From Deltaproteobacteria bacterium (lineage in GTDB: Bacteria; Myxococcota_A; Polyangia; JAAYKL01), in contig JAUVDV010000038.1 of assembly GCA_030595125.1 (NCBI GenBank), positions 1 to 48,951 on the forward strand: a DNA stretch of 48,951 bases. Direction: 5' to 3'. Positions within the stretch are counted from its first letter, which is position 1, and the number at the start of each line of letters is the position of its first letter. Both the position numbers and the translations under genes were made by a program. The notes under the pieces are model-generated. The model searched no databases. It was not told where the DNA came from and worked only from the letters and a program-made list of their open reading frames with translations. This document shows, one piece after another, positions 3,344-38,930 of this stretch.

Positions 3344-4444
3344 CTGAACATCACCCGCCCCACCCTTGTTCTGGACAAAAGCAAGTGCAAGGAAAACATC
3401 CGAGCGATGCTGGCAAAGGCCACGGCATGCGGTGTGCGGTTGCGTCCTCACTTCAAGACTCACCAGTCCATCGACATCGGACGGTGGTTCGCGCAGGACG
3501 GGGTGGACGCCATCGCCGTCTCCTCGGTTGCCATGGCGGAGTACTTCAGTGAGGGAGGTTGGCGGGACATCACCATCGCATTTCCTGTCAATGTGCGGGA
3601 GATGAAACGGATCGATCGTCTTGCGGAGGTGGCTTCACCGGGTTGCCTGGTTGAATCCGTCGAAGCTGTTCTCGCCCTGCACGCAGGCCTTTCCCACAAT
3701 GTGAACATATGGCTCAAGGTGGACACCGGATACGGAAGAACGGGAGTCCCATGGGACGACACCAATTCTTTCGACCGCATCATCGAAGAGGTGAAGAAGA
3801 GCCCGAGGTTGACAGCGCGAGGTCTCCTCACCCACGCGGGACATTCCTACGCGGCGGATACCACCGACGAGATCGTCGCCGTGAACGCGCAGACCGTCGC
3901 CAGGATGACAGAGCTTCGAGATCAGCTCGCGCCAGAAGCCGGCGATCTGGAGATCTCCATCGGCGATACCCCGTGTTGCAGCGTCGCGAACGATTTCGAC
4001 GGAGTAGACGAGATGCGACCGGGCAACTTCGTCTTTTACGACGTCATGCAATCCGCTCTGGGCTCGTGCACCCACGCGCAGATCGCGGTGGCCCTGGCAT
4101 GCCCGGTGGTCGCCGTGCACGAAAAGCGAAACGAAATCGTGGTTCACGGAGGAGCGATTCACCTCTCCAAGGAACACCTGTTAAACGCGGACGGTTCCAG
4201 GATGTTCGGACAGGTGGTCACGATGGACGATAACGGGTGGGGACCGCCGGTAGACGGGGCCTACGTGGGATCGCTCTCCCAGGAGCACGGGGTGATCTCG
4301 GCGCCCAAAGATCTGATCGAAAGGATCGAAATTGGAGATCTGCTGGGCGTGCTGCCGGTCCACTCATGTCTCACCGCAAACCTGATGGGCGGATACACAA
4401 CACTGGACGGCAACTTGATTGATCACATGTCATGCTCGACCTGA
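3344..4444 (+). CDS. PLP-dependent D-threonine aldolase / D-serine dehydratase-like enzyme
   Basis: A fold-III PLP enzyme of the alanine racemase N-terminal / D-serine dehydratase-like family. The PLP lysine is in RPHFKTH (K38 in the numbering used here). A Gly/Ser-rich phosphate-binding stretch follows, and near the C-terminus EHG and HSCLTANL supply the His/Cys metal ligands typical of D-threonine aldolases and DSD1-type dehydratases. The first ATG is at 3407, but the conserved first strand (PTLVLD, then KCKENI) is encoded upstream of it. The only plausible in-frame start is CTG at 3344, with GGAAAG about ten bases upstream. No in-frame ATG, GTG or TTG lies just upstream. The 3' end overlaps the helicase gene by 13 bases. 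The enzyme class is confident; the substrate is not. Confidence 0.8.
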   Translation: MNITRPTLVLDKSKCKENIRAMLAKATACGVRLRPHFKTHQSIDIGRWFAQDGVDAIAVSSVAMAEYFSEGGWRDITIAFPVNVREMKRIDRLAEVASPGCLVESVEAVLALHAGLSHNVNIWLKVDTGYGRTGVPWDDTNSFDRIIEEVKKSPRLTARGLLTHAGHSYAADTTDEIVAVNAQTVARMTELRDQLAPEAGDLEISIGDTPCCSVANDFDGVDEMRPGNFVFYDVMQSALGSCTHAQIAVALACPVVAVHEKRNEIVVHGGAIHLSKEHLLNADGSRMFGQVVTMDDNGWGPPVDGAYVGSLSQEHGVISAPKDLIERIEIGDLLGVLPVHSCLTANLMGGYTTLDGNLIDHMSCST

Positions 4445-35696: not shown

Positions 35697-35972
35697 ATGA
35701 CTGAAGAACGCTACTCCACCTATGAAACCAAGGCCCGGCTGAGCGAGATCCTGCGCAAGGTGCGACGCGGCCGCGAGGTCATCATAAGCAGCCGCGGTGT
35801 GCCCGTGGCGCGTATCGTCCCTTATGAAAAGGAGCGCGAAGATCACGAGGAACGGCTCGATCGGCTCGCCGCTTCCGACGTCCTCGGTCCGGCTCGCGGA
35901 CGACTCGAGGCTGTGGCGCCCCTCGGCGAGCGCCCCGGGGCGCTCAAACGGTTCCTCGACGATCGGGACTGA
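35697..35972 (+). CDS. Type II antitoxin, Phd/YefM family
   Basis: 91 residues. The N-terminal fold is the Phd/YefM type: YSTYETKARLSEILRKVRRGREVIISSRGVPVARIVPY, which dimerises and binds DNA. The C-terminal third is charged and would wrap the toxin. It precedes the toxin gene by three bases, as in most such operons, and carries a palindrome over its promoter for autoregulation. Phd-type antitoxins paired with PIN toxins are well known. Confidence 0.9.
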   Translation: MTEERYSTYETKARLSEILRKVRRGREVIISSRGVPVARIVPYEKEREDHEERLDRLAASDVLGPARGRLEAVAPLGERPGALKRFLDDRD

Positions 35973-35975
35973 TCG

Positions 35976-36374
35976 ATGGTCGTCGCCTATGTTGATACGT
36001 CGCTGGTCGTGGCGCTGGCGTTCGATGAGCCGTCTGTGGCCGGGTTTTCCGATCGACTCGGTCGCATCGACCGCCTCTGCTCCTCAACGCTGCTCGAGGC
36101 CGAGCTGCTCGCAGCAGCAGAGCGTGAGGGGTTGAGGTCCGGGGCGCGGCGTTTCATCGAGCCGATCCACTTTGTTTTCCCCGATCGCCGGCTCTCCAAC
36201 GAGATCGACGCTGTCCTGGCCTGCGGATACATCCGCGGCGCGGATCTTCACCACCTCGCAACGGCGCTGTTTCTGTTCGACAAACCTGCCGGAGCGTTCT
36301 TCCTTACCCTCGACACACAGCAAGATCGGTTCGCAACCGCGCTCGGTTTTTCCGTGCTCGACGACCTCGGCTGA
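35976..36374 (+). CDS. Type II toxin, PIN-domain (VapC-like) ribonuclease
   Basis: 132 residues. The PIN-domain acidic centre can be read: the first Asp in AYVDTSLVVAL (residue 7), Glu in LLEAELLAA (about 42), Asp in RGADLHHLATAL (about 92), and a last Asp in LDTQQDRFA (about 109). Such toxins cleave tRNA or rRNA under Mg2+ until the antitoxin binds. It is complete in length, so the pair is probably functional. Confidence 0.9.
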   Translation: MVVAYVDTSLVVALAFDEPSVAGFSDRLGRIDRLCSSTLLEAELLAAAEREGLRSGARRFIEPIHFVFPDRRLSNEIDAVLACGYIRGADLHHLATALFLFDKPAGAFFLTLDTQQDRFATALGFSVLDDLG

Positions 36375-36473: not shown

Positions 36474-36502
36474 TTGCAAACCGTAACGTTATGGTTTATG
36501 GT
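36474..36502 (+). promoter_or_regulatory. Fic gene promoter with 20-bp palindrome in the spacer
   Basis: AAACCGTAACGTTATGGTTT (36478-36497) is a 20-bp inverted repeat with a single mismatched pair, centred at 36487/36488. It fills the gap between TTGCAA (36474-36479) and TATGGT (36497-36502), which are 17 bases apart. This is the position where MerR-family dimers bind. The predicted transcript begins at or close to ATG 36509. Confidence 0.55.
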
Positions 36503-36508
36503 TTTGCC

Positions 36509-37483
36509 ATGATCTTTGATCGGCTTACAGAAAAGAAGAAGATGCTGGACAGCTATAAACCGCTGCCAGATTCTCTTGTTCGCAATCTTGATGACTGGTT
36601 TCGAGTCGAGCTCACCTACACCAGCAACGCCATCGAAGGAAACACCCTGACTCGCCTGGAAACCGCGCTTGTTGTTGAGAAGGGACTGGCGGTGGGGGGG
36701 AGGTCCCTCGCCGAACATCTGGAAGCCACCAACCACGCTTCTGCATTGGCCTGGGTGAGCGACCAGGCGAAACGCAAGCCCTCCACACTGAGACAGGACG
36801 ATATCCTGCATATCCACAGATTGATCCTCAGAGGAATCGACGATGAAAATGCAGGCCGCTACCGCAATGTGCCCGCAAGGATCTCCGGGTCACGCGTCGT
36901 GCTGCCAAACCCCAGGAAGGTACATTCCCTGATGAAAGGCCTGGAGAATTGGCTCGCCGAGCCCGGTGACCTGCACCCGGTGGAGTTCGCCGCCGAAGCT
37001 CACCTCAGGCTGGTTACAATTCACCCTTTTGTCGATGGAAACGGCAGGACCGCCAGGCTGCTAATGAACATGATCCTGCACATGCTCAATTACCCCGCCG
37101 CCATCATTCGCAAACGGGATCGGCTGGCCTACATCAGCGCCCTGGAAAAATCACAGATCGGTGGACCCAAGGACGACTATCTAAAAATCATCGTCAAGGC
37201 CGTCGGTTGTTCCCTGGATATACATCTGAAAGCAGTCAGGGGCGAAGACGCAAAACCGCCTGATGACGACAAATTACTCAAAATAGGTGCCCTGGCGAAA
37301 CAGGTCGGCGAGAGCAACTCCACCATCCGGCATTGGACAAAGGAAGGCCTGCTTGACGTCGCCGAGATTACCGAAGCCGGATACCAACTCTACTCCGCCG
37401 ACATGGTCGAACGAGTTAAACGGATCCACGCTCTCAAAGAGCGTCGCCTGACGCTCAAAGAAATCCTGGGCCACCTTAAATAG
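36509..37483 (+). CDS. Fic-domain protein fused to a MerR-type DNA-binding domain
   Basis: 324 residues from ATG 36509 (ATG 36491 is also in frame but lies inside the palindrome). Fic proteins transfer AMP or another nucleotide to protein hydroxyls. The core motif HPFVDGNGRTAR is intact (catalytic His172). The inhibitory helix motif TSNAIEGN lies N-terminally, so the enzyme is of the self-inhibited class. After a short linker, residues ~256-324 form a MerR-type winged helix: LLKIGALAKQVGESNSTIRHW, TKEGLL, then GYQLYSADMVERVKRIHALKERRLTLKEIL. Many Fic proteins end in a different winged helix; a MerR domain is less usual. No antitoxin-like partner follows. It probably represses or activates its own promoter through the palindrome. 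Confidence 0.85.
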   Translation: MIFDRLTEKKKMLDSYKPLPDSLVRNLDDWFRVELTYTSNAIEGNTLTRLETALVVEKGLAVGGRSLAEHLEATNHASALAWVSDQAKRKPSTLRQDDILHIHRLILRGIDDENAGRYRNVPARISGSRVVLPNPRKVHSLMKGLENWLAEPGDLHPVEFAAEAHLRLVTIHPFVDGNGRTARLLMNMILHMLNYPAAIIRKRDRLAYISALEKSQIGGPKDDYLKIIVKAVGCSLDIHLKAVRGEDAKPPDDDKLLKIGALAKQVGESNSTIRHWTKEGLLDVAEITEAGYQLYSADMVERVKRIHALKERRLTLKEILGHLK

Positions 37484-37532: not shown

Positions 37533-38819
37533 CTAGATCAGGGATAGGATCGCTTTGAGAATGGAGCCGTTGCGGGAAACGCCTGCCATACCGCAGTTGC
37601 AGCCGTCGTTTGTGAGGTTCAACGAGTCGGAATCGGAATCGGAATCGGAGTCGGAATCGGAATCGGAATCGGAATCGGAATCGGAGTCGGAATCGGAATC
37701 GGTGTCGGAATCGGTGTCGGAATCGGTGTCGGAATCGGTGTCTGTATCCGATCCGGTCTCGGTGCAGGTGGAGGGTTCGCCGGTGCAGTCCCAGCCGTCT
37801 TCGACATCACAGTTGTCATCGCAGCCATCGCCGGTGGCAGTGTTCAGATCGTCGCACTCCTCGGGAGGGCAGATGAATCCGTCGCCGCAACCGGTCTCCA
37901 CCGCAGAGCAGTCGCCGTGACATCCGTCGCAGTCGACGGTGTTGGTGTCGTCACACCCCTCACCGGCGGTGGTGTTGGTGGTGCCGTCACCACAGACCAT
38001 CGCGGTGCAGTCGGCGTCGCAGGTGGCGGACTCACCGGAGTCGTCGCAGTCCTCGCCGGCGGTGGTGTTGGTGGTGCCGTCACCGCAGGCCACCGCGGTG
38101 CAGTCGGCGTCGCAGGTAGCGGACTCACCGGAGTCGTCGCAATCCTCGCCGGCGGTGGTGTTGATGGTGCCGTCACCGCAAGAGACGAAAGTGCAGTCGG
38201 CGTCGCAGGTGGCGGACTCACCGGCATCGTCGCAGTCCTCGCCGGTATCGGTGGTGCCGTCGCCGCAATAAGGACCAGTGACGTACTGCACCTCTACCAG
38301 CGAATAGGAGCTTGTCTCTGTCCAGAGATCTTGAGCGGGCGTGGTGTTGAGATTGTACTGCATTCCAAGTCTGTGAAGGGTAACCGCCTGGCTGTCGATG
38401 GTGGTGGCATATGTATCTGACCCTCCATATGGATTGCTCATGGAACTTGTGCCGCGAGCTCCCAGGATGCCGATGATGTCTCCTGTGAAGATGTCGATAT
38501 CGCACGCGATCCAGCCGGTGCCTGCCACATTGGTCCATCTGCCGAGAGAAGTGAAATCGTTTGAAGTGGAGGAGTAGACAGGTACGGGTGTGTTGAACAG
38601 CACGATCTCAATGTTCTGCACGCCGGTACCGGCTTCAACCGGGACTCTCAAACCCGTGATATTGAAATCAACGGGCGATATGAAGTGGTAGCCTCTGGTA
38701 GTACTGCCGGTATAGTTGGTGCTCCACGACCCCACATTGATTTCGGCGGCCTCAATAGAGCCGACCGCCGACAGTACGATCAGGGCACCGAACATTGAAA
38801 CAACGATTCGTTTTCTCAT
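37533..38819 (-). CDS. Surface protein with DUF4215 Cys-rich repeats, Ser-Asp linker and shortened C-terminus
   Basis: 428 residues from ATG 38819, which has GGAGA just upstream (ATG 38831 is less likely). A signal peptide (ends SIEA) is followed by a ~170-residue beta-rich domain. Next are five Cys-rich DUF4215-type repeats (CGDGTTNTTAGEDCDD units), encoded by nearly identical 93-bp DNA repeats. A ~45-residue Ser-Asp run made by a hexanucleotide repeat follows. The end reads DGCNCGMAG, then SILKAILSLI and stop. This resembles the MYXO-CTERM anchor (Cys motif, transmembrane helix, Arg cluster) but stops partway through the helix with no Arg. Anchoring to the surface may therefore be lost. Confidence 0.8.
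   Translation of the reverse strand: MRKRIVVSMFGALIVLSAVGSIEAAEINVGSWSTNYTGSTTRGYHFISPVDFNITGLRVPVEAGTGVQNIEIVLFNTPVPVYSSTSNDFTSLGRWTNVAGTGWIACDIDIFTGDIIGILGARGTSSMSNPYGGSDTYATTIDSQAVTLHRLGMQYNLNTTPAQDLWTETSSYSLVEVQYVTGPYCGDGTTDTGEDCDDAGESATCDADCTFVSCGDGTINTTAGEDCDDSGESATCDADCTAVACGDGTTNTTAGEDCDDSGESATCDADCTAMVCGDGTTNTTAGEGCDDTNTVDCDGCHGDCSAVETGCGDGFICPPEECDDLNTATGDGCDDNCDVEDGWDCTGEPSTCTETGSDTDTDSDTDSDTDSDTDSDSDSDSDSDSDSDSDSDSDSDSDSLNLTNDGCNCGMAGVSRNGSILKAILSLI
37620..37746 (-). repeat. Hexanucleotide microsatellite encoding Ser-Asp linker
   Basis: About twenty units of TCGGAA/TCGGAG/TCGGTG on the plus strand, read as alternating Ser and Asp codons on the minus strand. Unit gain or loss keeps the frame and changes linker length. 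Confidence 0.8.
37980..38255 (-). repeat. Tandem 93-bp repeats encoding DUF4215 modules
   Basis: The block beginning GTGCCGTCACC recurs at 37981, 38074 and 38167, exactly 93 bases apart, with very few differences. The near identity points to recent duplication or gene conversion within the coding sequence. Confidence 0.75.
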
Positions 38820-38930
38820 GGTATTCTCCATTTATCGAACGTCCGCTTTGGTGCCATCGCTATCCTGCTTATACTACAAAAAGAATCTATATTTCAGGCT
38901 TTCAGGCTGATCACCCCCCTGGCGGCGACC

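Follow-up and report, generated by a model that had tools for sequence, protein, structure and literature searches.

A Fic–MerR fusion enzyme that very probably represses its own promoter through an operator conserved across bacterial phyla

Described self-regulating Fic enzymes and the fic-merR locus

CccR of Yersinia pseudotuberculosis, a class II Fic protein with a C-terminal helix-turn-helix (HTH), represses its own promoter via inverted repeats near the −35 and −10 boxes, and dimerisation is required for this repression (PMC9755527). For CbFic2 of Coxiella burnetii, conversion of a monomeric AMPylase to a deAMPylating dimer by DNA-induced dimerisation has been proposed (PMC10628234). Human FICD (HYPE) switches between a deAMPylating dimer and an AMPylating monomer; it dimerises through a surface containing Leu258, the relay formed by Asn236, Glu242 and Lys256 keeps the dimer in the AMPylation-off state, and the same dimer surface has been reported in other bacterial class II Fic proteins (PMC6826200).

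The fic-merR gene studied here lies in a window of 48,951 bp, i.e. the whole stretch of DNA that was analysed. Its product resembles CccR in being a class II Fic protein with an N-terminal inhibitory helix, a C-terminal HTH and an inverted repeat over the −35/−10 region of its own promoter. However, the HTH of CccR is not described as MerR-type, its repeats are 10 bp long and 26 bp apart whereas fic-merR has a 20-bp palindrome and a third half-site, and its authors likened it to SoFic rather than to FICD, the nearest fold of the fic-merR protein; CccR is also described as a T6SS-secreted effector, of which there is no evidence for fic-merR. With CbFic2, the protein shares the class II Fic domain with a C-terminal HTH, and the coupling of DNA binding to activity proposed for CbFic2 is the one on which the first-pass annotation of this DNA had speculated. 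CbFic2 differs in its DUF4172 N-terminus, its DeoR-type HTH and its target, host histone H3, and it bound random DNA in vitro, its operator not being known, whereas fic-merR has a conserved predicted operator. FICD and BtFic (PDB 3cuc) have the same inhibitory-helix and dimer-relay residues but no MerR domain, and FICD in addition contains TPR repeats and resides in the ER.

Among DNA-binding proteins, MerR, CueR, ZntR and MtaN share the MerR-type winged HTH domain and the palindrome between −35 and −10; in fic-merR, unlike in these regulators, the MerR domain is C-terminal on an enzyme, without a long dimerisation helix or effector domain, and all relatives have a 17-bp spacer rather than one of 19–20 bp. 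A further likeness is to Phd-Doc-like type II toxin-antitoxin systems, which likewise combine a Fic-fold toxin with a compact, autorepressed locus, whereas fic-merR is a single gene with the inhibitory helix, the enzyme and the predicted operator binder in one chain; no separate adjacent antitoxin gene, and no conserved neighbour family beyond a phage-specific set, was found at the fic-merR loci.

The first-pass annotation had presented the locus as a new twist on Fic regulation. That a Fic enzyme can serve as its own transcription factor, and that DNA binding may be coupled to activity, are concepts already published (CccR in 2022, CbFic2 in 2023), but the MerR version with a conserved operator and the single-gene mobile form appear undescribed; no description of a Fic-MerR protein was found in the open-access literature searched, subscription papers being outside the scope of the search. 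Judged from sequence, the gene almost certainly switches itself off, and the family would be a new and widespread variant of a type of self-regulating Fic enzyme known from two bacteria.

HTH-Fic enzymes have so far been studied in single species. The present family offers about 80 natural enzyme–operator pairs from about 13 phylum-level groups, with a predicted operator defined to the base pair and with culturable hosts, including Kordiimonas aquimaris, Leucothrix arctica and L. pacifica. Whether AMPylation and DNA binding are coupled through the oligomeric state of a Fic enzyme, a link proposed for CbFic2 and shown, without DNA, for FICD, thereby becomes directly testable. The family also illustrates how a toxin-like enzyme could spread on its own, with enzyme, inhibitor, predicted repressor and operator in a putatively leaderless gene of ~1 kb.

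Architecture of the gene and its promoter

The open frame extends from 36491 to 37483 (330 aa). The best start is the ATG at 36509, giving 324 aa with the stop at 37483 (Table 1): it aligns with the conserved start of the relatives, and the ATG at 36491 falls within the palindrome, between the two promoter boxes. Above the Pfam gathering scores, the protein matches Fic (PF02661, E = 2e-23), MerR_1 (PF13411, E = 5e-15) and MerR (PF00376, E = 1.5e-07), the latter two at residues 264–325 of the 330-aa frame, and all three families are matched in 62/62 aligned relatives, which bears out the C-terminal MerR-type HTH noted in the first-pass annotation. In the AlphaFold model, the MerR domain is complete, with a helix-turn-helix, a two-strand wing and two helices; the chain ends, at residue 324, with the second helix after the wing, and neither the long MerR dimerisation helix nor an effector-binding domain follows in the model.

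The modelled Fic fold is closest, among solved structures, to human FICD (6i7i; Z = 32.2, rmsd 1.8, 241 residues, 37% identity) and next to BtFic, the FICD and BtFic matches ranging over Z 30–32 and 31–37% identity; the fold search was uninformative on the MerR part, the match list being filled by the Fic domain. The inhibitory motif (S/T)xxxE(G/N) is present, N-terminal to the Fic core, as SNAIEGN, with Glu43, Gly44 and Asn45 invariant in 62/62 relatives. The catalytic histidine, which had been correctly named His172 (in 324-aa numbering), is likewise kept in all 62, and two relatives have changed or masked residues in the motif. By these domain matches and the model, the window protein combines a FICD-like Fic enzyme of class II with a complete MerR DNA-binding domain in one chain.

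Table 1 Features of the fic-merR locus in the window.
Feature	Position	Strand	Sequence	Basis or remark
Conserved promoter-operator element, 31 bp	36474..36504	+	TTGCAAACCGTAACGTTATGGTTTATGGTTT	PWM built on homologues
−35 box	36474..36479	+	TTGCAA	TTG conserved in 66–73 of 80 relatives
Near-perfect palindrome, 20 bp, formed by half-sites A and B; predicted operator for a dimer	36478..36497	.	AAACCGTAACGTTATGGTTT	9/10 pairs complementary
Half-site A	36478..36485	+	AAACCGTA	Homologue motif, consensus AAASYRTA
Half-site B, inverted copy of A	36490..36497	-	TATGGTTT	Homologue motif, consensus TAYRSTTT on the other strand
Half-site C, direct repeat of B with 7-bp period, overlaps −10	36497..36504	-	TATGGTTT	TAYRSTTT consensus in 80 relatives
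−10 box	36497..36502	+	TATGGT	17 bp from −35
fic-merR gene	36509..37483	+		324 aa; predicted leaderless mRNA; AlphaFold model pLDDT 91.3
Class II inhibitory helix motif	36623..36643	+	SNAIEGN	Residues 39–45 of the 324-aa protein
Fic catalytic motif	37022..37057	+	HPFVDGNGRTAR	Residues 172–183; fits HxFx(D/E)GN(G/K)RxxR
MerR DNA-binding domain	37280..37465	+		Residues 258–319 of the 324-aa protein; Pfam PF13411/PF00376 and model secondary structure

The 20-bp palindrome reported in the promoter is real, and only three 20-bp windows in the 48,951 bp reach 9/10 complementarity. It had been described as filling a 17-bp spacer: the spacer is indeed 17 bp, which is a normal promoter spacing, but the palindrome slightly overfills it, overlapping the −35 box by 2 bp and the −10 box by 1 bp. 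The spacer length is fixed in all relatives (the motif being gapless). A single half-site occurs in three copies in the element, the third of which (C) coincides with the −10 box. The motif position pairs 5–22, 6–21, 10–17 and 12–15 are nearly invariant; pair covariation is weak (7–20, 7–27 and 11–16, in addition to the two-fold symmetry) and leaves the pairing open to A/B or A/C, A being able to pair with either. Pairing of A with B is preferred because of the 13-bp separation of these half-sites, which is the geometry of MerR operators. The fifth position of the −10 box is C or G in 79/80 relatives and never the A of TATAAT; an A there would make a better −10 box, which suggests that the operator constraint limits promoter strength.

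Because the ATG lies only 7–8 nt past the −10 box (7 nt in the window), and 7–10 nt past the last −10 base in most relatives, the mRNA is probably leaderless, with transcription starting at or beside the ATG. In one alphaproteobacterial group (L060, L062, L063, L071, L073–L077, L080 and L085), the ATG is 29–43 nt from the −10 box, and a fourth half-site, AAAACYRTAAGGTAA, located upstream of the gene just before the ATG, could double as a Shine-Dalgarno-like AAGG.

A MerR-type domain predicted to sit in the −35/−10 spacer would occupy the standard position of an activator, and the statement of the first-pass annotation that the palindrome is "exactly where MerR dimers bind" implied activation of the gene's own promoter by MerR-type DNA distortion. 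As stated, this is not supported: MerR activators rely on abnormal spacers of 19–20 bp (PMC11049809, PMC1526738), whereas every fic-merR relative has 17 bp, the boxes are already well spaced and the third half-site sits on the −10 box; furthermore, positive feedback on an enzyme that may be toxic would make for an unstable loop. Activation was therefore rejected as the leading reading owing to the spacer, and we regard it as quite unlikely. Repression is likelier because the spacer is fixed at 17 bp between good boxes, and, from the sequence comparisons taken together, the protein very likely binds the 31-bp element and represses its own gene. Under autorepression, the MerR domains, paired by the Fic-domain dimer in place of the dimerisation helix that they lack, would bind the A/B palindrome between the −35 and −10 boxes, with half-site C on the −10 box itself; the bound protein would block RNA polymerase, such that the protein made from the leaderless gene would shut off its own synthesis. 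The sequences show the fusion, the operator and its restriction to fusion genes, its fixed place on the promoter core and its single occurrence in the home genome; that the MerR domain is the binder, that its binding represses, that the Fic dimer provides the pairing and that the enzyme is active we infer.

Distribution of the promoter-operator element

The scan of the genome collection yielded 80 relatives, nearly all full-length fusions. The hosts belong to Pseudomonadota (including Rickettsiales), Verrucomicrobiota, Planctomycetota, Acidobacteriota, Bdellovibrionota, Myxococcota, Hydrogenedentota, Dadabacteria, Chloroflexota and several candidate phyla; IMG/VR contained five phage or prophage fusions and two Fic proteins with other C-termini. 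A position matrix fitted to the upstream DNA of the relatives gave a gapless 31-bp element, TTGMAAACCRTAACGTTAYRSTTTAYRSTTT (37.6 bits), which scored above 15 bits in 82/87 promoters, from about 13 phylum-level groups and from phages, and above 25 bits in 80/87 (75 distinct sequences), compared to a maximum below 0 bits in shuffled regions. The check for the palindrome upstream of homologues, as proposed in the first-pass annotation, was thus run and was positive for 82 of the 87 promoters. Locus L096, omitted from the matrix fit, also carries the element. The relatives that bear it mostly share 54–76% protein identity and have unrelated flanking sequences, and the information content fades to about zero on the upstream side of the element and declines steeply on the downstream side. 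No element was present in the scored upstream DNA of fusions L061 and L107, fusion L098 has a partial one, and the remaining exceptions, L122 and L123, have different C-termini. L123 is a viral Fic whose C-terminus is MerR-like but different, and upstream of position 4001 the half-site of the Fic-MerR operator occurs there in another arrangement, as inverted tandem copies (TACTTTATAGTT ... AACTATAAAGTA).

In the loci and genomes compared, the element is tied to the fusion. None of the 57 Fic loci without a MerR domain has it (whole loci, both strands; best score 6.0 bits). Exact operators occur in 5/280 genomes of the class (G000, G017, G097, G086 and G040), and the same five encode the fusion by protein search, split over contig ends in G097 and frame-broken in G040. 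In the home genome (5.39 Mb), the single site at up to 3 mismatches is the fic-merR promoter itself, and no regulon was found at that threshold. Since the operator is conserved with the fusion, absent without it and the sole such site in the genome, the fusion protein very probably acts as the transcription factor of its own gene, as the first-pass annotation had proposed. The frame-broken copy (L010, G040:C3) has a frameshift within the catalytic motif and an intact operator, a natural inactivation or a sequencing error.

Operators regulating other genes were also considered. The viral scan recovered five Fic-MerR contigs and, apart from these, two sites that fall within unrelated genes or close to them. 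In the class, single-mismatch sites of the form AAAGTGTnnAGTGACACTTTACACTT occur in unrelated contexts in four genomes that do not encode the fusion (L164, L165, L167 and L169); these two viral and four class sites were judged to be chance matches or sites of other regulators. One of the four precedes a ferredoxin/FAD reductase-like gene and is possibly another regulator's site.

Such single-mismatch sites would fit a reading in which the element is bound by a host regulator or sigma factor, with the MerR domain acting elsewhere or in protein contacts, and the conservation is partly plain promoter constraint, given that C coincides with the −10 box and A overlaps the −35 box. However, the same factor would be needed in all of the phylum-level groups and in phages, the element tracks the fusion and not the host, MerR-less Fic genes are without it, and the spacer, normally free in promoters, is conserved about as well as the boxes. 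Recognition by a host factor thus appears very unlikely compared with binding by the fusion protein itself.

Dimerisation, recognition and mobility

The residues Asn236, Glu242, Lys256 and Leu258 of FICD have counterparts N45, E51, K/R65 and L67 in the fic-merR family (position 65 is Arg in the window protein and Lys in 61/62), so it is natural to suppose that a dimer of Fic domains brings the MerR domains together. Related FICD-like proteins of bacteria that lack the MerR domain keep these residues just as well, and their conservation was rejected as a fusion-specific signature; it is compatible with a DNA-binding Fic dimer, but is neither proof of one nor evidence of selection for one. The enzyme is presumably active and would most likely AMPylate a cellular target, and the inhibitory Glu43 may allow deAMPylation by the same enzyme. 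Feedback between enzyme activity and DNA binding is plausible. More tentatively, the gene could be a one-protein toxin-antitoxin-like module, in which operator-bound dimers would be AMPylation-off (deAMPylating) and repressing, whereas monomers, which a low protein level or ATP would favour, would be active AMPylases with the promoter open, the module spreading across phyla and in phages together with its leaderless promoter-operator; we consider this extension of autorepression possible but rather doubtful.

In the recognition helix, residues 276, 277 and 281 (330-aa numbering) show associations with bases 7, 16 and 20 of the operator, which are striking in the raw counts. With G at operator position 20, Ser277 is found in 25/25 and Asn276 in 23/25 cases, and with G at position 7, Asn276 is found in 0/17. 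The association is not significant on independent tree branches (2–7 supported pairs), and the Fic-domain columns Q92 and M194 correlate with the operator bases as strongly as the recognition helix does. Coevolution between the recognition helix and the operator is therefore not claimed, the independent changes being too few to tell it from descent.

The gene tree mixes phyla, to which metagenome binning errors may contribute, and the fic-merR loci have no conserved partner gene except in a set of related phages carrying the gene. Within the window's genus, the fic gene is 97–98% identical between the window and G097, compared to 87–90% for the flanks. The phd/YefM antitoxin gene and PIN-domain (VapC-like) toxin gene directly upstream in the window (35697–36374) also occur in G097, whereas G017 lacks them and has the fic gene after the glycosyltransferase-like gene. 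The phyla-mixing tree, the unconserved neighbours and the comparison of G097 with G017 point to a solitary gene carrying its own operator.

MerR-type domains occur in IS607 transposases, and the element might accordingly mark an end at which a mobile cassette recombines or inserts, with the MerR domain assisting a recombinase. The scatter of the gene over phyla and phages would fit, as would the homology between the window and G017, which resumes 3 bp before the −35 box, and a second, near-identical operator in Leucothrix arctica (L109:5010–5040), right after the fic-merR stop and before a cytochrome b561-like gene. Nevertheless, the G017 border reflects the presence or absence of the upstream phd-vapC pair, the second copy was found at one locus only, there is neither a recombinase domain nor a conserved neighbour, and the element has promoter anatomy and a fixed distance to the ATG, such that a role as a recombination end is extremely improbable and the element is best read as the operator of a self-repressing gene.

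Downstream of the gene in the window, the minus strand (37533–38831) encodes a seemingly secreted protein in which Cys-rich CGDG repeats are accompanied by a long Ser-Asp repeat; it is missing at the same place in G097 and present in G017. Loci L117–L121 and L040 are related alphaproteobacterial phages or prophages that carry fic-merR as cargo amid similar phage genes. L040, L069, L076, L078 and L096 each have another Fic gene, seemingly a DUF4172-type one, within about 4 kb of fic-merR.
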